Source of the DNA: Aliiruegeria haliotis
GTDB taxonomy: Bacteria; Pseudomonadota; Alphaproteobacteria; Rhodobacterales; Rhodobacteraceae
DNA length: 64,000 nt
NCBI RefSeq assembly: GCF_003003255.1
Contig: NZ_PVTD01000001.1
Coordinates: forward strand, 62,001 to 126,000
Direction of reading: 5' to 3'
The notes below the pieces were generated by a model. It searched no databases. It was given only the letters and a program-made list of their open reading frames with translations, and was not told the DNA's origin. Positions 6,198 to 55,008 of the stretch are shown piece after piece. How positions within the stretch are numbered: position 1 is the first letter of the stretch; every line of letters starts with the position of its first letter. The translations under genes and the position numbers were made by a program.

Positions 6198-6785
6198 TCA
6201 GAGCGTTCCCTTGGTGGAGGGAATGGCATCTGCCTTGCGCGGGTCAGGCTCGACGGCCTCTCGCAGGGCGCGGGCGACGGATTTGAACCCGGCCTCGACG
6301 ATGTGATGGCTGTTCAGCCCGTGCAGCGTATCCACGTGCAGGGTGACCCCGCCATGCGTCGAGAATGCCTGGAAAAACTCGCGTACCAGTTCGGTGTCGA
6401 AGGTGCCTATCTTCTGGGTCGGGAACTCCATGTTCCAGACCAGATAGGGGCGCCCCGACAAATCCAGCGCCGACTGTACCAGGGCGTCGTCCATCGGCAG
6501 CAGGCAGGCGCCATAGCGGCGAATGCCACGCTTGTCACCGAGCGCCTGTGTCAGTGCCTGACCGATGGCGATGCCGGTGTCCTCGACGGTGTGGTGATCG
6601 TCGATGTGCAGGTCGCCTTCGGCGCGGATCGTCATATCGATGAGCGAATGGCGGGAAAGCTGCTCCAGCATGTGGTCGAAGAACCCGACGCCGGTCTTGC
6701 AGTCGTATTGCCCCGTGCCGTCGAGGTCGATCTCGACAGAGATCTTCGTCTCCGTCGTGGCCCGTTCGATTTTCGCCTTGCGCAT
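6198..6785 (-). CDS. hisB: Imidazoleglycerol-phosphate dehydratase HisB
   Basis: A 195-residue monofunctional IGPD, without the phosphatase domain found in enterobacterial HisB. It dehydrates imidazole glycerol phosphate to imidazole acetol phosphate. Manganese-binding motifs are visible: [26 protein letters not shown], and [19 protein letters not shown]. The start ATG 6785 gives [15 protein letters not shown], the usual N-terminus. First gene of the hisB-hisH pair. Confidence 0.96.
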
Positions 6786-8165: not shown

Positions 8166-8240
8166 TGGAGCGGGCGATGAGATTCGAACTCACGACCCTA
8201 ACCTTGGCAAGGTTATGCTCTACCCCTGAGCTACGCCCGC
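8166..8240 (-). tRNA. tRNA-Gly(GCC), copy 2 of a tandem pair
   Basis: On the minus strand: acceptor GCGGGCG (5' end at 8240), D-arm TAGCTCAGGGGTAGAGCA, anticodon arm AACCTTGCCAAGGTT with anticodon GCC, T-arm GTTCGAATC, then CGCCCGC, discriminator T and an encoded CCA (8166-8168). Length is 75 nt. It is identical in sequence to the copy at 8280-8354. Confidence 0.97.
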
Positions 8241-8279
8241 GCTTCACTGGCTTTGCGACCGGCGGTCCGGTCTCTCTCT

Positions 8280-8354
8280 TGGAGCGGGCGATGAGATTCG
8301 AACTCACGACCCTAACCTTGGCAAGGTTATGCTCTACCCCTGAGCTACGCCCGC
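8280..8354 (-). tRNA. tRNA-Gly(GCC), copy 1 of a tandem pair
   Basis: The same 75-nt cloverleaf as the neighbouring copy, with anticodon GCC and encoded CCA (8280-8282). The two genes are separated by 39 bases and probably form one transcript read from here toward 8166. Confidence 0.97.
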
Positions 8355-15401: not shown

Positions 15402-15815
15402 ATGAAAGTACTGGTGGTCGAGGATGACCCGAACCTTGGCTCCCTATGGGAGCGGGTCCTGCTGGAAGCCGGGCACGAGGTTCTTCAGACCGCGTCGGAA
15501 ACCGGCGCCGCCAGGCTTCTGGAAACCAGACCCTTCGATCTCGTCGTGCTGGACATGTGCATAAACGGCCGGGATGCGCGCGGTATTTCGCTGCTCGCGA
15601 CCTATCGCAACCCGACCTGCAAGGTGGTCATTGTGAGCGGTTCGTCGAATTTCTCCCGCAAGGCGCTGTTTGCGATGTCGCCGGCGGTTTCCGCAGCGCT
15701 CCGAAAACCTGTCGATATCGAGGATCTGCTCGAGGTTTGCCACCTGGTGTCCGGCACCGACAGGCGCCTTCCGATCCAGACGGTGGATGGTGGCGGCATC
15801 GAGTTCCGCACCTGA
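15402..15815 (+). CDS. Stand-alone response regulator receiver protein
   Basis: A 137-residue single receiver (REC) domain with no output domain. The acidic pair is in VLVVEDDPNLG (D9, D10), the phosphoacceptor aspartate in DLVVLDMCINGRD (near residue 51), and the switch lysine in RKPVDIEDLLE. The usual Thr/Ser position is served by VIVSGSSNFS. CheY-like single-domain regulators act by protein-protein contact in phosphorelays. No histidine kinase is nearby. GGAGAAGGTGA precedes ATG 15402. It converges on the DUF1127/hairpin RNA cluster, which could share stress control with it, but nothing in the sequence proves this. Confidence 0.88.
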   Translation: MKVLVVEDDPNLGSLWERVLLEAGHEVLQTASETGAARLLETRPFDLVVLDMCINGRDARGISLLATYRNPTCKVVIVSGSSNFSRKALFAMSPAVSAALRKPVDIEDLLEVCHLVSGTDRRLPIQTVDGGGIEFRT

Positions 15816-15875
15816 GCGACCGGCGGGCGGACGACCTGAAGGGCAAATCTGCGTTATCAATACCCGAAAATGGAA

Positions 15876-15943
15876 ACGGCGGCCCCAGGGAGGAGGGGAC
15901 CGCCGTTTGATCGGTCAGCCGAACCCGGGAGGGGAGGTCCGGC
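15876..15943 (-). ncRNA. Double-hairpin CCUCCUCCC-type (cuckoo RNA-like) unit A
   Basis: Lies 24 bases after the stop of the first DUF1127 gene, same strand. Hairpin 1 (15943-15918): 8-bp stem with loop TCCCCTCCCG. Hairpin 2 (15906-15876): ACGGCGG plus CCCC stem with one bulged base and loop TCCTCCCT, giving CCTCCTCCC overall. A weak T-rich tail (TTTCCATTTT) follows. The two-hairpin layout with pyrimidine loops matches the cuckoo/CcsR sRNA family of Rhodobacterales and Rhizobiales. Confidence 0.75.
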
Positions 15944-15966
15944 CGCCGTATTCCGTTGGATTGCCG

Positions 15967-16185
15967 TCAGGCGAGACCGGCGGCCTGCTTGGCCACGTCC
16001 TTGATGACCAGACGGCTCAGGCCGATATCGGCCAGCTCGGCCTCGGTCATGCAGCGCAGTTCCTCAAGGGTTTTGCGATAGGCGCGGTATTGCGCAACGC
16101 GGGCGCTGTAGCCTTTGACCATGTCCGTAAACCAGCCAGTACGCAGGCCGGCTTCGGCGCGGGGGGCTTCGGAAACATATGTCAT
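15967..16185 (-). CDS. DUF1127 small protein, paralogue 1
   Basis: A 72-residue DUF1127 (YjiS-like) protein. The C-terminal half carries the family core: YRAYRKTLEELRCMTEAELAD then IGLSRLVIKDVAKQA. The start at 16185 (MTYVSEAPRAE) is chosen over an upstream ATG at 16218 because AAGGA lies 9 bases before it and the length then matches the paralogues. In Rhodobacter sphaeroides the DUF1127 protein CcaF1 binds RNA and affects sRNA maturation. A similar role is inferred here. It is followed directly by hairpin unit A and preceded by the shared upstream elements. Confidence 0.88.
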   Translation of the reverse strand: MTYVSEAPRAEAGLRTGWFTDMVKGYSARVAQYRAYRKTLEELRCMTEAELADIGLSRLVIKDVAKQAAGLA

Positions 16186-16255
16186 CGTGCGATGTCCTTG
16201 GTTGAGTACCCGGACCACCGTCCGGGCTTCGGGTCGAGGCGCTGACCGGGAGGGG

Positions 16256-16336
16256 TGTTAGCGCTCTCTTCGGTAAGGAATGTATGCCAATTCCCCGCGA
16301 TGAGTACCGCCAAAGGTTTCATTTCCGGTATGCAGT
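16256..16336 (-). promoter_or_regulatory. Shared upstream elements of DUF1127 paralogue 1
   Basis: On the plus strand TGTTAGCGCT (16256-16265) lies 71 bases upstream of the gene start, and a TATGCA core (16329-16334, in CCGGTATGCAG) lies 73 bases further out. The same pair at 71-73 bases recurs upstream of all four DUF1127 genes. Sigma-factor type and regulator are not known. Confidence 0.6.
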
Positions 16337-16387
16337 TTCTGCACGGAGTTATGCTGTTATCGCTATTTTCGGTCCTGCGCGGAGGTC

Positions 16388-16459
16388 AAAAAAAACGACG
16401 GCACCCGGGAGGAAGGTGCCGTCGCTTGTTCAGAAAACCCAGGGAGGAGGGGCTTTCTG
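16388..16459 (-). ncRNA. Double-hairpin CCUCCUCCC-type (cuckoo RNA-like) unit B with terminator
   Basis: Starts 16 bases after the stop of DUF1127 paralogue 2. Hairpin 1 (16459-16431): 10-bp stem CAGAAAGCCC/GGGTTTTCTG with loop CTCCTCCCT. Hairpin 2 (16424-16396): perfect 10-bp stem CGACGGCACC/GGTGCCGTCG with loop TTCCTCCCG, followed by T8, so it doubles as a Rho-independent terminator. The G-U pair in hairpin 1 exists only in the minus-strand RNA; on the plus strand it would be an A-C mismatch. Confidence 0.85.
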
Positions 16460-16474
16460 GTTCTGTCGAAGTCT

Positions 16475-16681
16475 TTAGGCGCCGTAGGCGGCGTCGCGCG
16501 CCAGGCTGCGGATCATGGAGCGGCTCACGCCGAGGTCGGCGAGGGCGCGGTCCGAAAGCTGGCTCAGTTCGGTGACCGTCGTCCGGTACACCTTGTACTG
16601 TTCATACTTCAGTTTCAGCGTTTCGAGCGGGGCTTTCGTCCAGTTGATCGAGCCGGCGGCGGTGTTCAGTGTGGTATCCAT
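16475..16681 (-). CDS. DUF1127 small protein, paralogue 2
   Basis: A 68-residue DUF1127 protein (MDTTLNTAAGS at the start). Core: YEQYKVYRTTVTELSQLSDR, ALADLGVSRSMIRSLARDAA. An upstream ATG at 16690 overlaps the AAGGA ribosome site, so the start 8 bases after AAGGA (16681) is preferred. It is followed after 15 bases by hairpin unit B and its terminator, and preceded by the shared upstream elements at 16734 and 16806. RNA-binding activity is inferred from the Rhodobacter CcaF1 paralogue. Confidence 0.9.
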   Translation of the reverse strand: MDTTLNTAAGSINWTKAPLETLKLKYEQYKVYRTTVTELSQLSDRALADLGVSRSMIRSLARDAAYGA

Positions 16682-16733
16682 GGTTTGCATCCTTGAGTCT
16701 GTTCGGCTTTCGCCGGAATGTCCGAGGCGCTTC

Positions 16734-16816
16734 GGTTAGCGCTATCTTTGAACTTAAGATAAGATCCCAACGGTCTATGACTACTGTTGAAATCGGCAAT
16801 GCTGCTATGCAGCATT
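16734..16816 (-). promoter_or_regulatory. Shared upstream elements of DUF1127 paralogue 2
   Basis: GGTTAGCGCT (16734-16743) lies about 53 bases upstream of the gene. AATGCTGCTATGCAGCATT (16798-16816) is a perfect 8+8 palindrome around TAT and contains the TATGCA core at 16806, 72 bases from the first element. A CTTATCTT hexamer-like box lies between them on the minus strand, resembling RpoH -10 sites, without a clear -35. Confidence 0.6.
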
Positions 16817-16874
16817 TGCAGTGTGCGTCGTGCCGATGATCGGCGGGTGTGCGATGCCACTGCGCGTTGGCGAA

Positions 16875-16945
16875 AGAAAAGGCGGCGACACCGGGAGGAG
16901 GTGTCGCCGCCTTGTGTCAGAGAGGCAGGGAGGGGACGCCCTCTG
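16875..16945 (-). ncRNA. Double-hairpin CCUCCUCCC-type (cuckoo RNA-like) unit C with terminator
   Basis: Begins 14 bases after the stop of DUF1127 paralogue 3. Hairpin 1 (16945-16918): CAGAG plus GGC stem with a bulge and loop GTCCCCTCCCT. Hairpin 2 (16911-16881): perfect 12-bp stem GGCGGCGACACC/GGTGTCGCCGCC with loop TCCTCCC, then TTTTCTTT, a terminator. Confidence 0.85.
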
Positions 16946-16958
16946 AATTCGAGTGACC

Positions 16959-17177
16959 TCAGGCGTTGCGCGCGGCCTCGCGGGCGATCTCGTGGAACAT
17001 CGCACGGCTCAGGCCCAGGTCGTTCAGGTCGCGCTCGCTGAGGGCATCCAGCTCTCGCAGAGTTGCGCTGTAGGCTCGGCGCTGCCGGACATGAGCCCGC
17101 AGTGTCTCGGTCAGGTTGCTGAACCAGCCACCGTATGCGGCAGCGTCAGTGCGGGGGGCTTGTGTTGCGATTTCCAT
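16959..17177 (-). CDS. DUF1127 small protein, paralogue 3
   Basis: A 72-residue DUF1127 protein. Core: QRRAYSATLRELDALSERDL, NDLGLSRAMFHEIAREAARN. The start at 17177 is chosen 8 bases after AAGGA; an earlier ATG at 17186 overlaps that site. Arginine-rich, as expected for an RNA-binding member. It is followed by hairpin unit C and preceded by the shared elements (17237, 17308). Closest in layout to paralogue 2. Confidence 0.9.
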   Translation of the reverse strand: MEIATQAPRTDAAAYGGWFSNLTETLRAHVRQRRAYSATLRELDALSERDLNDLGLSRAMFHEIAREAARNA

Positions 17178-17236
17178 TTCTATCATCCTTCGTCTGCCCG
17201 GGCGGTCCCGGGGCGTATTCTGCGCCAGGCTGGTCC

Positions 17237-17313
17237 TGTTAGCGCTCCCGTTGACCCCTACATATGCAGCTTCCCTCCGCTCTCAACGCGCGACTTGGCA
17301 AGGCCGCTATGCA
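17237..17313 (-). promoter_or_regulatory. Shared upstream elements of DUF1127 paralogue 3
   Basis: TGTTAGCGCT (17237-17246) lies 60 bases from the gene start, and GCCGCTATGCA with TATGCA at 17308-17313 lies 71 bases further out. Between them on the minus strand, TTGAGA-N13-GCATATGT could be an RpoH-like promoter, but the match is loose. Confidence 0.6.
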
Positions 17314-17370
17314 ATTCCCGCACGGTGCCTTGCGTGGGCTTCTGGGGTTGGCGGGCTGGACTGTGGGCAT

Positions 17371-17449
17371 AAAAAAGGCGGTGACACCGGGAGGAGGGTG
17401 GTGTCACCGCCGAAAGACAGAAAACCCAGGGAGGAGGTCGGGCTCTCTG
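17371..17449 (-). ncRNA. Cuckoo RNA-like unit D4 (last of a four-unit array) with terminator
   Basis: Hairpin 1 (17449-17418): CAGAGAGCCC/GGGTTTTCTG with two G-U pairs and a loop containing CCTCCTCCC. Hairpin 2 (17411-17377): perfect 12-bp stem GGCGGTGACACC/GGTGTCACCGCC, loop ACCCTCCTCCC, then T6. It is the only unit of the array with a clear T-run, so it probably ends the whole transcript. Confidence 0.88.
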
Positions 17450-17500
17450 AACTGTGGTCCGTCGCGAGACGGTGGCCGGATTGCCGGCCGAAAGAGGATG

Positions 17501-17572
17501 GCGACGACACCAGGGAGGAGGAAGGTGTCGCCGCCGAAACCGAAAAACCCAGGGAGGAGGACGGGTTTCCGG
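17501..17572 (-). ncRNA. Cuckoo RNA-like unit D3
   Basis: Hairpin 1 (17572-17540): CCGGAAACCC paired with GGGTTTTTCGG, loop with CCTCCTCCC; nearly identical to D1. Hairpin 2 (17534-17501): GCGGCGACACC/GGTGTCGTCGC, one G-U pair that would be A-C on the plus strand, loop TTCCTCCTCCCT. No T-run follows. Confidence 0.87.
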
Positions 17573-17623
17573 AACTGTATTGCCCGTTTCGGGCGCCACC
17601 GCCCGCAGGCGGCTTCTGTAGTC

Positions 17624-17696
17624 GCGGAGACACCGGGGGAGGAGGAGTGGTGTCGCCGCCGAGATTGACCCAGGGAGGAGGAGAGGGCCGATCTCG
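17624..17696 (-). ncRNA. Cuckoo RNA-like unit D2
   Basis: Hairpin 1 (17696-17660): CGAGAT/ATCTCG outer stem, small internal loop, CCC/GGG inner stem, loop TCTCCTCCTCCCT. Hairpin 2 (17659-17624): GCGGCGACACC/GGTGTCTCCGC with one mismatch, loop containing CTCCTCCTCCCCC. Most divergent unit of the array; no T-run follows. Confidence 0.83.
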
Positions 17697-17752
17697 TATG
17701 TCTTGCGCCGTTCCGGCGCTGCCCGGCCCTCGCGGGATGGGCGGTGTCTGGT

Positions 17753-17824
17753 GCGGCGACACCAGGGAGGAGGAGAGGTGTCGCCGCGGAACCGAAAAAC
17801 CCAGGGAGGAGGACGGGTTTCCGG
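17753..17824 (-). ncRNA. Cuckoo RNA-like unit D1 (first of the four-unit array)
   Basis: Begins 12 bases after the stop of DUF1127 paralogue 4. Hairpin 1 (17824-17792): CCGGAAACCC with GGGTTTTTCGG and loop GTCCTCCTCCCT. Hairpin 2 (17787-17753): perfect 11-bp stem GCGGCGACACC/GGTGTCGCCGC with loop TCTCCTCCTCCCT. No T-run follows, so transcription should continue into D2-D4. Confidence 0.88.
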
Positions 17825-17835
17825 AACTCTGTGTT

Positions 17836-18054
17836 CTAGGTCGCCAGCGCTGTTTCGCGTGCCACCGAGCGGATCATCGGGCGGCTCAGGCCCAACTCGC
17901 TCAGGTCGCTGTCGCAAAGTGCCGACAGTGTCTTCACAGTCTGACGATACGCCAGAAACTGCTGATATTTCGTTGCGACCGGTGCGATCAGCAGCGATCC
18001 GAGCGACATGCGGGCGCGATCCTGCCGATCTTCGGTATGGTACGCGGTTGCCAC
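17836..18054 (-). CDS. DUF1127 small protein, paralogue 4 (CcaF1-like)
   Basis: A 72-residue DUF1127 protein if started at GTG 18054, which has AAGGA 9 bases upstream exactly like its paralogues; the frame stays open to an ATG at 18129, giving 97 residues, but that region holds the shared GTTAGCGC element and is probably leader. Core: YQQFLAYRQTVKTLSALCDS, DLSELGLSRPMIRSVARETA. It precedes four tandem double-hairpin units, the same arrangement as ccaF1 (RSP_6037) with CcsR1-4 in Rhodobacter sphaeroides, where expression depends on RpoHI/RpoHII. Orthology is inferred from this layout. Confidence 0.88.
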   Translation of the reverse strand: MATAYHTEDRQDRARMSLGSLLIAPVATKYQQFLAYRQTVKTLSALCDSDLSELGLSRPMIRSVARETALAT

Positions 18055-18114
18055 GGTCTCTCGTCCTTTTTTGTGTGTCGCCGGTCTGGCGTCTGTCTGT
18101 TTCGGTTCGGGCTC

Positions 18115-18214
18115 TGTTAGCGCTTTCATTGTCGCCGTTAGCGCCCTCGTTGATATTCAAAATAGGGGTCCCGGCGGATCGCGCAATTCCCCTCGGGCTC
18201 AATGCCGCTATGCA
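18115..18214 (-). promoter_or_regulatory. Shared upstream elements and RpoH-like promoter of DUF1127 paralogue 4
   Basis: Two GTTAGCGC copies (TGTTAGCGCT 18115-18124, CGTTAGCGCC 18136-18145), the outer one 73 bases from the TATGCA core at 18209-18214 (in AATGCCGCTATGCAG). On the minus strand TTGCGC-N13-CCCTATTT ends near 18161, agreeing with the heat-shock sigma factor (RpoH) consensus and its 13-15 base spacing. Regulation by RpoH fits what is known for the Rhodobacter locus. Confidence 0.6.
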
Positions 18215-18347
18215 GAAAGTGCATATGTGGTACTGACCTAATTTCTGCAATTTCGCTTATTTTCGGGGCGTTCTGCGAACGCGGGTTGCGTCTGGCGCAG
18301 GGCGCAATAGGTCTTGGGCGTTCGTGACGCTACGTAGGAGCCCTCAA

Positions 18348-52780: not shown

Positions 52781-53128
52781 TCAGAGGCGCTCGACCGCGA
52801 CTTCGGAGGCCGTTGTGTAGAACGCGATATGGTCCTTGAGGCGGCTCATGCCCTCGATCGGGCACTCGTAGGACCAGGCGGCGTTTTTCAGCGTCTTGCT
52901 CTTGGTGTCGATCGAGAAATAACGGGCGTCGCCAATATGGGGGCTGTGGCTGGATGTCTCGGTGGCATCGAGGAACGCCATGGCGATGTCGTCACGGGGA
53001 AAGTAGATGACCGGGGGCATGTCACCCTCGGTGAGTTCCAGTGCGTTTGTGCTTTCGGCGAGAACGGCGCCGCCGGCACGGACAACCCATTTGCCCTCGG
53101 CCTTGCGGATCTTGATGTGGTCTACCAT
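52781..53128 (-). CDS. DUF427 domain protein
   Basis: A 115-residue protein made of a single DUF427 domain: VIYFPRDDIAMAFLDATETS, SPHIGDARYFSI and NAAWSYECPIEGMSRLKDHI then AFYTTASEV. DUF427 proteins are small cytoplasmic proteins of unknown function with a beta-rich fold. Strong ribosome site GGGAG before ATG 53128. A TGTTAGCGCT element like those before the DUF1127 genes lies 66 bases upstream. Confidence 0.9.
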   Translation of the reverse strand: MVDHIKIRKAEGKWVVRAGGAVLAESTNALELTEGDMPPVIYFPRDDIAMAFLDATETSSHSPHIGDARYFSIDTKSKTLKNAAWSYECPIEGMSRLKDHIAFYTTASEVAVERL

Positions 53129-53194: not shown

Positions 53195-53204
53195 TGTTAG
53201 CGCT
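53195..53204 (-). promoter_or_regulatory. TGTTAGCGCT element upstream of the DUF427 gene
   Basis: Identical to the 10-base element found 53-71 bases before the DUF1127 genes. Here it lies 66 bases before the gene and just after the pepP stop. The second element, the TATGCA core, is not present at the matching distance. Confidence 0.4.
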
Positions 53205-53208
53205 CAAC

Positions 53209-55008
53209 CTATACTGGTGCGGTTGCGGCGTCCAGCCAGGCCGCGACGTCACGATCCAGCAGGGGGGCAAGGCGCGATCTTACCTCTGCGTGATAGCCAT
53301 TCAGCCAATCCAGTTCAGCGCGGCTCATCAGCGCGGTGTCGAGCAGCCTGCGGTCGATCGGTGCCCAGGTGAGATTGGCGAAGGCCAGCATCTCGCGGTC
53401 GTCGGCGCCGTCGAGAGCGGGGGCCGCGACGACATGGATCAGGTTCTCGATGCGGATGCCAAAGGCGCCCTCGCGATAGTATCCCGGCTCGTTGGAGAGG
53501 ATCATGCCCTCTTCCAGCGGCACGTCGGAGACGCGGGAGATCCGCTGGGGCCCTTCGTGCACGCTGAGGTAGGCGCCGACACCATGCCCGGTGCCATGGT
53601 CGTAGTCCTGGCCCGCCATCCACAGCGGCGCACGCGCCAGCGGGTCGAGATCCCGGCCAGCCAGCCCGCGCGGCCAGCGCGCACGCGAAATGGCGATCAC
53701 GCCCTGAAGGACCCGTGTGAAGCAGGCCTTTTGCGCGTCGGTCACCGGCCCCGTTGCGATCGTTCGAGTGATGTCGGTTGTGCCGTCAGCGTACTGCCCG
53801 CCGGAATCCACCAGGAGGATCTCGCCGGGCGTGACGCGGCGGTTGCTTTCGGTGCTGACACGATAGTGGACGATGGCGCCGTTGGGACCGGAGCCGCAGA
53901 TCGTTTCGAAGCTGATGTCGCGCAGCAGCGGGTCCTCGGCGCGGAACGCCTCCAGCCGTTTCACCACGTCGATCTCGGTCAGCTTGCCCTTGGGCGCCTC
54001 GGCGTCGAGCCAGCACAGGAACCGGCACATGGCTGCGCCGTCGCGCAGATGTGCCTGTTCCGATCCGGAAATCTCGGCGGCATTCTTGCGCGCCTTGGGC
54101 ATCACGCAGGGGTCGCGGTCGAAGTGGATCTCCGCGCCCGTGATCTGTTCGGCAACCCAGTAGGGGGCGGATCCCTTGTCGAGCAGAACCTCGCCGTCCA
54201 ACGCTTCCAGTGCGGCGCCGAAGGTTTCCGGCAGGTGACAGGTCACCTGATTGCCGAGATGCGTCATCGCGGCGTCGGTGAGTTTCTCCGGCGCGCAGAA
54301 AAGATCGACCGAGGCATCCGCGTTCAGGATCGCAAAAGCGTGCGGCACCGGGTTGCGGACAATGTCACTGCCGCGGATGTTCAACAGCCAGGCTATGGAA
54401 TCCGGCAGGGTGAGCACGGCGGCGGACAGGCCCTTCGCGGTCAGGTCGGCGGCGAGGGCGGTGCGCTTCTCGCCATGCTCCTGCCCGGAATACTCTAACG
54501 GATGCACGAGGATGTCACCCAGCGGTGGCTCCGGCTGGTCCTGCCAGATGGCATCGACGTAGTTGGGGGACGGATGGTAGGTCAGGCCGTGCGCCTTGCC
54601 CTCCTCGCGCAGTTTGCGGATCTCCTCGGCGGTATGGAGCCTCGGGTCGAACGCGATCTTCCCCCCGTCCGGCATCTGGTCGGTCAGCCAACCGGCAAGC
54701 TGGGTCTTTGGCCACGCGACCGGTGTGAAGGCCGACAGGTCCACCTGCGCGCGCACCTGAAGCGTGTAGCGGCCATCGACGAAAATCCCCGCCACCTCGG
54801 GCAACACCGCGCAGAAGCCCGCCGACCCGGTGAACCCCGTAAGCCACGCAAGGCGCGCGTCGTGCGGGGCGACATACTCGCCCTGATGCATGTCGGCGCG
54901 GGGGACCAGGAAGCCATCGTATCCGTCCCGGGCAAGCTGCTGGCGAAGCGCGGCAAGGCGCGGCGGGCCGTCGCCGGGGCGGGTGGAGACGTCGAAAGAC
55001 TGGTACAT
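53209..55008 (-). CDS. Aminopeptidase P family protein (Xaa-Pro aminopeptidase, M24B)
   Basis: A 599-residue long-form aminopeptidase P, with two N-terminal creatinase-like domains (first: GFLVPRADMHQGEYVAPHD and WLTGFTGSAGFCAVL) and a C-terminal pita-bread catalytic domain. Metal ligands are visible in LLVDSGGQYADGTTDITRT (two Asp), GTGHGVGAYLSVHEGPQR (His), GMILSNEPGYY (Glu) and FGIRIENLIHVV (Glu). It removes an N-terminal residue before proline from peptides. Cytoplasmic by sequence. Length fits the long eukaryote-like/alphaproteobacterial form. Confidence 0.95.
   Translation of the reverse strand: MYQSFDVSTRPGDGPPRLAALRQQLARDGYDGFLVPRADMHQGEYVAPHDARLAWLTGFTGSAGFCAVLPEVAGIFVDGRYTLQVRAQVDLSAFTPVAWPKTQLAGWLTDQMPDGGKIAFDPRLHTAEEIRKLREEGKAHGLTYHPSPNYVDAIWQDQPEPPLGDILVHPLEYSGQEHGEKRTALAADLTAKGLSAAVLTLPDSIAWLLNIRGSDIVRNPVPHAFAILNADASVDLFCAPEKLTDAAMTHLGNQVTCHLPETFGAALEALDGEVLLDKGSAPYWVAEQITGAEIHFDRDPCVMPKARKNAAEISGSEQAHLRDGAAMCRFLCWLDAEAPKGKLTEIDVVKRLEAFRAEDPLLRDISFETICGSGPNGAIVHYRVSTESNRRVTPGEILLVDSGGQYADGTTDITRTIATGPVTDAQKACFTRVLQGVIAISRARWPRGLAGRDLDPLARAPLWMAGQDYDHGTGHGVGAYLSVHEGPQRISRVSDVPLEEGMILSNEPGYYREGAFGIRIENLIHVVAAPALDGADDREMLAFANLTWAPIDRRLLDTALMSRAELDWLNGYHAEVRSRLAPLLDRDVAAWLDAATAPV

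Follow-up and report, generated by a model that had tools for sequence, protein, structure and literature searches.

Four DUF1127 genes with cuckoo-type hairpin tails in Aliiruegeria haliotis: an amplified form of the CIN1 locus with a predicted LsrB/VtlR-like promoter box

Within a 64,000-nucleotide stretch of the Aliiruegeria haliotis genome (contig NZ_PVTD01000001.1, positions 62,001 to 126,000; here called the window), the minus strand carries at window positions 15871-18054 four genes of the DUF1127 family (15967-18054) and seven two-hairpin units, i.e. 14 hairpins, of the cuckoo or CcsR type. Along the reading direction the genes are ordered D, C, B and A, whereby D is followed by four units and C, B and A by one unit each (Table 1). 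Every gene has a promoter-like module of its own and a 3′ tail of one or four units, and the hairpin loops copy, as judged from the letters, the anti-Shine-Dalgarno (anti-SD) sequence of the 16S rRNA. Short DUF1127 genes followed by CcsR-like RNAs are known as the CIN1 locus (PMC10253847; this and all other papers are cited for their accessible passages). The locus described here is an amplified form of CIN1, and the cluster is a genus-level variant of it. The association of DUF1127 genes with CcsR RNAs is already known; what appears to be new is an LsrB/VtlR-like box and a GCGCTAAC site shared by the four promoters, neither of which figured in an earlier reading of this DNA (the sequence-only reading). 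This promoter link is the part worth testing. On balance we lean, with some reserve, towards an amplified CIN1-type regulatory locus with RNA processing and dual promoter control as proposed below.

The sequence-only reading had placed four DUF1127 genes on one strand and a pair of hairpins behind each, and both statements are borne out by the open reading frames (ORFs), model matches and folds; its choice of RNA family and its comparison with ccaF1-CcsR1-4 were likewise correct. Hereby, genes A, B and C score above the Pfam cut-off, and gene D, which falls below it, can nevertheless be aligned with DUF1127 proteins. Start codons were chosen by us, and A, C and D share 31-39% of their residues with B. 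As in CIN1, i.e. ccaF1 with its CcsR RNAs, a DUF1127 gene lies directly 5′ of the RNA units, which consist of tandem hairpins with CCUCCUCCC loops and variable stems. The CcsR1 covariance model (RF02791) matches all seven units with E values from 1e-14 to 2e-3, spanning its full length in units A, B and C, and all seven also match RF02344 below its cut-off. The covariance search suggested with the sequence-only reading thus detects the family at every unit, while the gathering score of RF02791 (65.3 bits) is reached by none of the seven (best 64.8 bits, others 26.6-50 bits). A gathering-level Rfam scan of the whole window returned two tRNAs only; the E-value mode was used together with a whole-genome ranking.

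All 14 hairpins fold, and the first stem begins 11-18 nt past each of the four stop codons, so that the proximity claimed earlier holds while the figure given for it (12-24 bases) does not. The anti-SD motif expected in the loops is found as CCUCCUCCC in 11 of the 14 hairpins, fully within the predicted loop in eight (all of array D). In A2, B1 and C2 pairing is predicted for the bases at its edges, and A1, B2 and C1 have lost part of it. The hairpin structure is real and the stems covary strongly. Across 327 distinct TCCTCCTCCCT sites from the window and 71 loci with a DUF1127-hairpin chain, nine positions on each side were compared without folding at the best of two offsets with reshuffling, because a single offset mixed two loop classes. 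Arm complementarity amounts to 84.6%, compared to a mean of 59.8% and a maximum of 61.8% when the right arms were redealt 500 times; other offset pairs give 56.7% and 48.0%. Several pair types occur at every stem position among these 327 sites, which stem from related genomes and are not independent.

The hairpins of A, B and C might alternatively serve mainly as terminators or 3′-end stabilisers of the DUF1127 mRNAs, with trans-acting anti-SD RNAs released from array D only. This would fit the single hairpin without CCUCCUCCC and the partly paired CCUCCUCCC of the other one in each of these units, as well as the genes of related clusters that lack hairpins altogether (see below). T-runs follow B2, C2 and D4, i.e. 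three of the four loci as had been stated before, and a terminator scan picks B2 and C2, though with four sites in total versus 3.0 expected in shuffled sequence. A terminator, however, needs no conserved CCUCCUCCC, whereas two hairpins and one CCUCCUCCC are retained in every tail in the window, and the CcsR1 model is matched from end to end by units A, B and C. We therefore regard a mainly terminating role as rather unlikely.

A ranking of CcsR1 matches over the genome (5.04 Mb, 33 contigs) is headed by nine, namely the seven window units (E values here 2e-15 to 5e-4) and two on contig C10, both of which sit behind DUF1127 genes and bring the number of DUF1127-plus-unit genes to six. The two C10 genes (G000:C10, L104:3044-3265 and 6375-6596; C10a and C10b) are of A type with one unit each, lie 3.3 kb apart and show 85% identity across some 400 bases; each has a GCGCTAACA site, and only that at 6375 also has a box of the TGCA-N6-GCAT type. 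CcsR1 matches with E values up to 0.001 occur in one of 14 control genomes, number six to nine in each of the nine searched genomes of the Tropicimonas/Aliiruegeria genus, and are found at least once in 99 of 120 family genomes; the gathering score of RF02791 is passed in seven of the 120. At gathering level, no CcsR1 unit passes in five other loci and one ar14 match, in L105, does.

A scan with the B-type alignment yielded 74 loci, the nearest being from Tropicimonas and Aliiruegeria. Among 73 non-genus loci examined, six of which were chosen for long arrays, a DUF1127 gene followed by hairpins is present in 60 and a second DUF1127 gene in none. According to our own motif search, which may miss genes, four DUF1127 genes lie in one piece in five of the nine genus genomes (the window, G002, G004, G005 and G007) and three in G003; the remaining genomes have two, or a set split over contigs, and the arrays of G001 and G006 show no DUF1127 head recognisable by this search. 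Four side-by-side paralogues are thus confined to this genus among the loci examined. Relatives with a single DUF1127 gene carry arrays of up to 15-16 hairpins (L172, L168; Limimaricola). The earlier statement that the island is larger than the described locus consequently stands against the four RNAs given for Rhodobacter sphaeroides in the accessible part of PMC10253847, and fails against the family, for which this number of units is ordinary.

An unrooted phylogeny built from 61 proteins over 72 columns, with the non-genus proteins thinned to every second and only a few branchings resolved, recovers A-, B- and C-type groups across the genus, while the D-type genes cluster only loosely and the last gene of G005 clusters with the family type, not with A. 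The B-type proteins fall in with the ordinary proteins of the family (support 98/94), opposite A, C and D, and among the four paralogues D has diverged furthest. This argues against an ancestral D, and the view that paralogue 4 with its four units is the founding locus is not supported by the phylogeny that had been proposed along with it. The multiplication in this genome is no recent event, as orthologues of A, B and C and array heads like D are spread through the genus; judging by the similarity of the two C10 copies, copying continues. Plain redundancy, i.e. tandem duplication without functional separation, would be compatible with this similarity and with the single promoter layout common to all four genes. 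Given that A, B and C form separate orthologue groups across the genus and that A, C and D have diverged from B to the extent stated above, we hold it to be decidedly improbable.

With regard to the promoters, the TGCA-N6-GCAT element of the LsrB/VtlR regulon is present exactly ahead of genes A, B and D and with one mismatch ahead of C. In the PnfeR1 promoter of an anti-SD small RNA (sRNA) the same element lies at -72 to -60 and is bound by LsrB (PMC10746234). Promoters of the genus share a layout of TGCA-N6-GCAT(AGC), 77-79 bases from the start of the box to GCGCTAAC, and between them a core resembling TTGnnn-N16-TAnnTT (by eye); in this genome it applies to A, B, C, D and C10b. Assuming a start about seven bases past the -10 element, the predicted box position is about -72 to -59. 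The genus loci and the window hold 39 GCGCTAAC/T sites, of which 21 have the box at 77-79 bases and seven are second copies at 98-101. Eight matches to the combined pattern GCAT-N62..68-GCGCTAAC occur in this genome, and the six DUF1127-plus-unit genes account for six of them; of 43 across the genus, 31 fall at genes or arrays of these clusters (counted from coordinates).

Outside the genus, an exact box within 300 bases upstream is found for 52 of 60 genes, compared to a mean of 0.88 and a maximum of 4 in 50 dinucleotide shuffles, and a box with one mismatch for all 60 (shuffles: mean 14.9, maximum 25). This count omitted the 13 of 73 non-genus loci in which no DUF1127-hairpin chain was detected, and the 60 loci are related and do not represent 60 independent events. 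In Shimia and some others the best match lies nearer to the start and is probably a second box: the consensus of 49 genes (11 of the 60 left out) reads ATGCAnnTGCTGCATAGCrGCATTG, 12 bases, ATTGTGCAnnyGCAGCAw, then CCyATnTT, i.e. two tandem LysR-type boxes with the second overlapping the -35 element. Such a second box is not evident in the window promoters.

The VtlR motif is reported as CAATGCAGCCATGCA (PMC12595884), which reads TGCATGGCTGCATTG on the other strand. The best match to this 15-mer reaches 11-14 of 15 positions in 55 of the 60 genes and 10 in five, whereas one shuffled set gives 7-10 and none of 60 at 11 or above; C10a reaches 11/15 and C10b 9/15. The VtlR consensus GCAT-N3-TG-N3-T itself does not occur at the four genes, B and D reading GCAT-N3-rG-N3-T, one base off, and A and C being further away. 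An LsrB-type 15-mer with up to two mismatches has 59 matches in the genome versus 15 for the reversed pattern; four are at DUF1127-plus-unit genes, and of seven inspected among the other 55 one (L293) is promoter-like. The pattern TGCANNNNNNGCATAGC has seven matches in the genome, two of them at the locus, and none when reversed. At L293 (G000:C1:181056) an arginine-rich small ORF of 83 amino acids (aa) is preceded by a GCTAACA site and by an LsrB-type box that is nearly perfect, and at L226 (G007:C13:32521) the same promoter layout precedes a region in which our motif search recognised no DUF1127 gene.

A candidate for the protein that reads the box is encoded at C1:4926-5825. The best match of this LysR protein in the PDB is 9HH1, LsrB of Agrobacterium tumefaciens (249.5 bits versus 101.7 for the next), with 119 of 287 residues identical (41.5%) and 50 of 66 in the helix-turn-helix part. 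This score gap suggests that the genome has an LsrB-type regulator. An LsrB-like protein is present in 115 of the 120 family genomes (E up to 1e-80), which suggests that LsrB is not restricted to Rhizobiales. Two other LysR proteins did not qualify: L239 is OxyR-like, and that of L244, considered as a VtlR relative, is closest to LrhA (9HH1: 43.6 bits). The L244 gene (G000:C4:86847-87334) is divergent from a separate DUF1127 gene without an adjoining CcsR1 match. A LysR gene beside trxB, as in Rhizobiales, is absent; trxB is flanked by an Lrp-type gene and by a large gene read by eye as sulfate adenylyltransferase/APS kinase.

The box could also be read by another LysR-type protein, with RpoH sigma factors as the main switch and the likeness to LsrB sites reflecting shared ancestry of LysR sites. 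The genome has 30 LysR matches, three of which were compared with the PDB, and the -10 consensus of the family, CCyATnTT, resembles that of the RpoH1 promoter given as CTTGAA-N16-CCTATAT (PMC8844928). An RpoHI/RpoHII promoter is reported for ccaF1 (PMC10253847), and LsrB outside Rhizobiales has been denied (PMC11975290). In the window the -10 elements are like TATnTT (by eye), which does not separate RpoH from RpoD, and a strict sigma-70 scan found no promoter (0.6 expected in shuffles); the RpoHI/II control assumed by the sequence-only reading had been carried over from R. sphaeroides. Half-sites and spacing, on the other hand, are those of PnfeR1 at a similar distance from the inferred start, the VtlR 15-mer matches exceed those of shuffled sequence, and the LsrB-like protein is nearly universal in the family. 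A LysR box and an RpoH promoter may moreover coexist. We consider such a different reader of the box to be on the unlikely side, and keep an LsrB-like regulator as the preferred candidate.

The second promoter site, in its extended form GCGCTAACR, occurs 26 times in the genome, six times at DUF1127-plus-unit genes; gene B reads GCGCTAACC. It is scarce, since the reversed pattern occurs 224 times. Ten of the 20 sites outside these loci were inspected, namely all seven ending in A and three ending in G that were met via other searches. Six of them precede sucC, edd, glpX, zwf, the GTP-type pck and a GntR-like LacI gene, and edd is preceded by the full palindrome GTTAGCGCTAAC. The LacI-family regulator CceR is reported to target genes of glycolysis, gluconeogenesis, the Entner-Doudoroff and the pentose phosphate pathway in Rhodobacteraceae (PMC5507952), and the GCGCTAAC sites may, judging from their target genes, be of CceR type. 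GCGCTAA or TTAGCGC is found at 31 of 32 genus genes and at eight of 60 non-genus genes (counted without shuffle control), so this second input looks largely genus-specific. A second copy lies 21-22 bases, i.e. two helical turns, away at seven array-head promoters. A GCGCTAACA site is also found in the window at 53195-53203 (minus strand), between a gene for a 115-aa protein (52781-53128) and an aminopeptidase P-like gene (53209-55008, by eye).

Located in what would be the 5′ leader, GCGCTAAC might instead act as RNA or as the site of another protein, unrelated to carbon control of the CceR type. Its position past the inferred start point would suit this, and in A, B, C and D the GTTA that forms the left half of the LacI-type palindrome is replaced by GAGA, GATA, GGGA and GAGG. 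The complete palindrome ahead of edd, the single sites ahead of zwf, pck, glpX, sucC and the LacI gene, and the second copies at the seven array heads point the other way, and we judge this explanation unlikely, about as much as a different reader of the LysR-type box. Central-carbon control of the CceR type remains the reading followed here.

Taken together, these elements can be arranged into a mechanism. By analogy with ccaF1-CcsR1-4 and NfeR1, gene and tail would form one transcript, from which RNase E, aided by the DUF1127 protein, would excise the hairpin RNAs. Base pairing of these RNAs with purine-rich ribosome-binding sites, for instance GGGAGGAGG, would block translation, and the DUF1127 proteins would bind RNA and tune processing and turnover. 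For the related systems, CcaF1 is described as an RNA-binding protein that helps RNase E to mature the CcsR RNAs (PMC10253847), and the anti-SD loops of NfeR1 silence mRNA at the ribosome-binding site (PMC10746234). The start regions of A-D have AAGGA-like sites rather than GGAGGAGG (by eye), so silencing by the RNAs need not extend to their own genes. In the genome GGGAGGAGG-N3-9-ATG has 15 matches versus three for the reversed pattern, and ORFs behind them include, by eye, alanine dehydrogenase, acyl-CoA dehydrogenase, YeeE/YedE-like, Dabb-type and Yip1-like proteins. The TGCA-N6-GCAT box, at about -72, would be the target of an LsrB-like LysR activator, and GCGCTAAC, just past the start point, that of a LacI regulator of CceR/GntR type. 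This would place translation-repressing RNAs under joint redox/stress and central-carbon control, with several parallel copies free to diverge in strength and target choice.

A number of observations weigh against this proposal. The transcription start was read by eye. Units A, B and C each include a degenerate hairpin (A1, B2 and C1), and eight DUF1127 genes of the genus clusters lack qualifying hairpins, six being of A type or in the A place and two of C type or in the C place (L091_4319, L093_4100, L094_4125, L096_3562, L097_3759, L097_4763, L099_3401, L100_4190). Of the 39 GCGCTAAC/T sites, 11 have no TG(C/T)(A/G)-N6-GCAT upstream, several of them keeping the GCAT half only, and in C10a the left half is changed to TTCA. 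Only 16 of the 32 genus genes have an exact box and 24 one with a single mismatch, in a set in which some genomes are counted twice (seven duplicates were excluded from the covariation and hairpin counts, not from this one). The reversed combined pattern gives six matches in the genome and 36 in the genus, i.e. no enrichment in count, and the positions of the matches, not their number, therefore carry that argument. The VtlR 15-mer is matched weakly by A (10/15) and C10b, and the T of its GCAT-N3-TG reads A or G here. LsrB has been called unique to Rhizobiales, on a small set of species that included R. sphaeroides (PMC11975290), and the reported control of ccaF1 by RpoHI/RpoHII differs from the one predicted here. 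Finally, CceR was assigned from target genes, not from a known motif, and four of the ten inspected sites have no clear carbon-metabolism gene (Lrp-type, lptB region, HAD, and the aminopeptidase P-like/115-aa pair).

Both DUF1127 proteins and cuckoo RNAs occur widely in Alphaproteobacteria, and the shared box is a predicted tie between the Rhodobacteraceae locus and LsrB/VtlR, which has so far been described in Rhizobiales. With its canonical and degenerate loops and differing DUF1127 proteins, the four-paralogue cluster is a natural set of variants for dissecting the functions of the parts. More tentatively, and with somewhat less confidence than in the proposal above, LsrB/VtlR control of DUF1127 genes and anti-SD RNAs could be one ancestral alphaproteobacterial circuit, split over separate genes in Rhizobiales, joined in one transcript behind the same box in Rhodobacteraceae, and multiplied in the Tropicimonas genus (six copies here) with a central-carbon LacI protein as second regulator. 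In that case, mimicry of ribosome-binding sites would be set jointly by the redox and the sugar-phosphate state.

Table 1. Coordinates (window positions) of genes, RNA units and predicted promoter elements of the locus.
Feature	Position	Strand	Basis
DUF1127 gene A, 72 aa	15967..16185	-	Pfam PF06568, 33.6 bits (cut-off 23.3); in the tree clusters with the two contig C10 duplicates
DUF1127 gene B, 68 aa	16475..16681	-	Pfam, 49.7 bits; in the tree joins the usual proteins of the family
DUF1127 gene C, 72 aa	16959..17177	-	Pfam, 39.5 bits
DUF1127 gene D, 72 aa, GTG start, heads four-unit array	17836..18054	-	Pfam, 20.5-21.1 bits, under cut-off 23.3
Cuckoo/CcsR unit A (A1 degenerate; A2 with CCUCCUCCC)	15871..15953	-	RF02791, 26.6 bits; fold
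Cuckoo/CcsR unit B (B1 with CCUCCUCCC; B2 degenerate, terminator-like)	16390..16464	-	RF02791, 44.5 bits
Cuckoo/CcsR unit C (C1 degenerate; C2 with CCUCCUCCC, terminator-like)	16877..16957	-	RF02791, 29.5 bits
Cuckoo/CcsR unit D1	17748..17828	-	RF02791, 64.8 bits
Cuckoo/CcsR unit D2	17619..17699	-	RF02791, 32.4 bits; ar14, 47.3 bits
Cuckoo/CcsR unit D3	17496..17575	-	RF02791, 50 bits
Cuckoo/CcsR unit D4, then six T	17373..17452	-	RF02791, 46.1 bits; sequence
LsrB/VtlR-type box of gene A, TGCA-N6-GCAT	16330..16343	-	10/15 of VtlR 15-mer, no better than shuffled sequence
LsrB/VtlR-type box of gene B, TGCA-N6-GCATAGC	16804..16820	-	13/15 of VtlR 15-mer
LsrB/VtlR-type box of gene C, TGCG-N6-GCAT, one base changed	17309..17322	-	12/15 of VtlR 15-mer
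LsrB/VtlR-type box of gene D, TGCA-N6-GCATAGC	18207..18223	-	13/15 of VtlR 15-mer
GCGCTAACA site of gene A (putative LacI/CceR-type operator)	16256..16264	-	motif search
GCGCTAAC site of gene B	16735..16742	-	motif search
GCGCTAACA site of gene C	17237..17245	-	motif search
GCGCTAACG site 1 of gene D	18136..18144	-	motif search
GCGCTAACA site 2 of gene D (site 1 lies 21 bases upstream)	18115..18123	-	motif search

Elsewhere in the window, a response-regulator receiver domain protein is encoded on the opposite strand next to the locus (15402-15815), and two tandem tRNA-Gly(GCC) genes with equal scores are located at 8166-8354.

We found no publication that describes clustered CIN1 loci, or a link of the Rhodobacteraceae locus to LsrB/VtlR or CceR, in the accessible literature; some earlier studies may touch on parts of it. 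Of the known systems, the CceR regulon resembles the present case by its LacI-family regulator and its central-carbon genes, with GCGCTAAC sites here ahead of zwf, edd, pck, glpX and sucC; the resemblance is one of targets, and the accessible part of PMC5507952 describes no DUF1127 or sRNA target. The VtlR regulon of Brucella, with DUF1127 genes and abcR2, is similar in that an LsrB-type LysR regulator acts on DUF1127 genes, as is predicted here; VtlR regulates three of them (PMC12595884). Its sRNA is AbcR2 and not a cuckoo RNA, and a joint DUF1127-sRNA transcript is not described in the accessible passages. NfeR1 of Sinorhizobium meliloti (alpha-r14, RF02344) shares the anti-SD hairpin loops, whereas it has three hairpins, a gene of its own and NtrC as second regulator, and the passages available on it mention no DUF1127 gene.

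The closest relative is CIN1 of R. sphaeroides. We take the RNA RS0680a of this organism to belong to the CcsR set. It is described with two stem loops and an anti-SD motif in each (PMC3927594). In CIN1, as here, a short DUF1127 gene (ccaF1, RSP_6037) is followed by sRNAs (CcsR1-4), which are there co-transcribed with it up to a terminator at the end (PMC10253847). Its promoter is reported as RpoHI/RpoHII-driven, while the prediction for the present locus is an LsrB-type box together with a GCGCTAAC site, and instead of one gene with four RNAs there are four genes with 1+1+1+4 units, a promoter-like module for each, and two more copies elsewhere in the genome.

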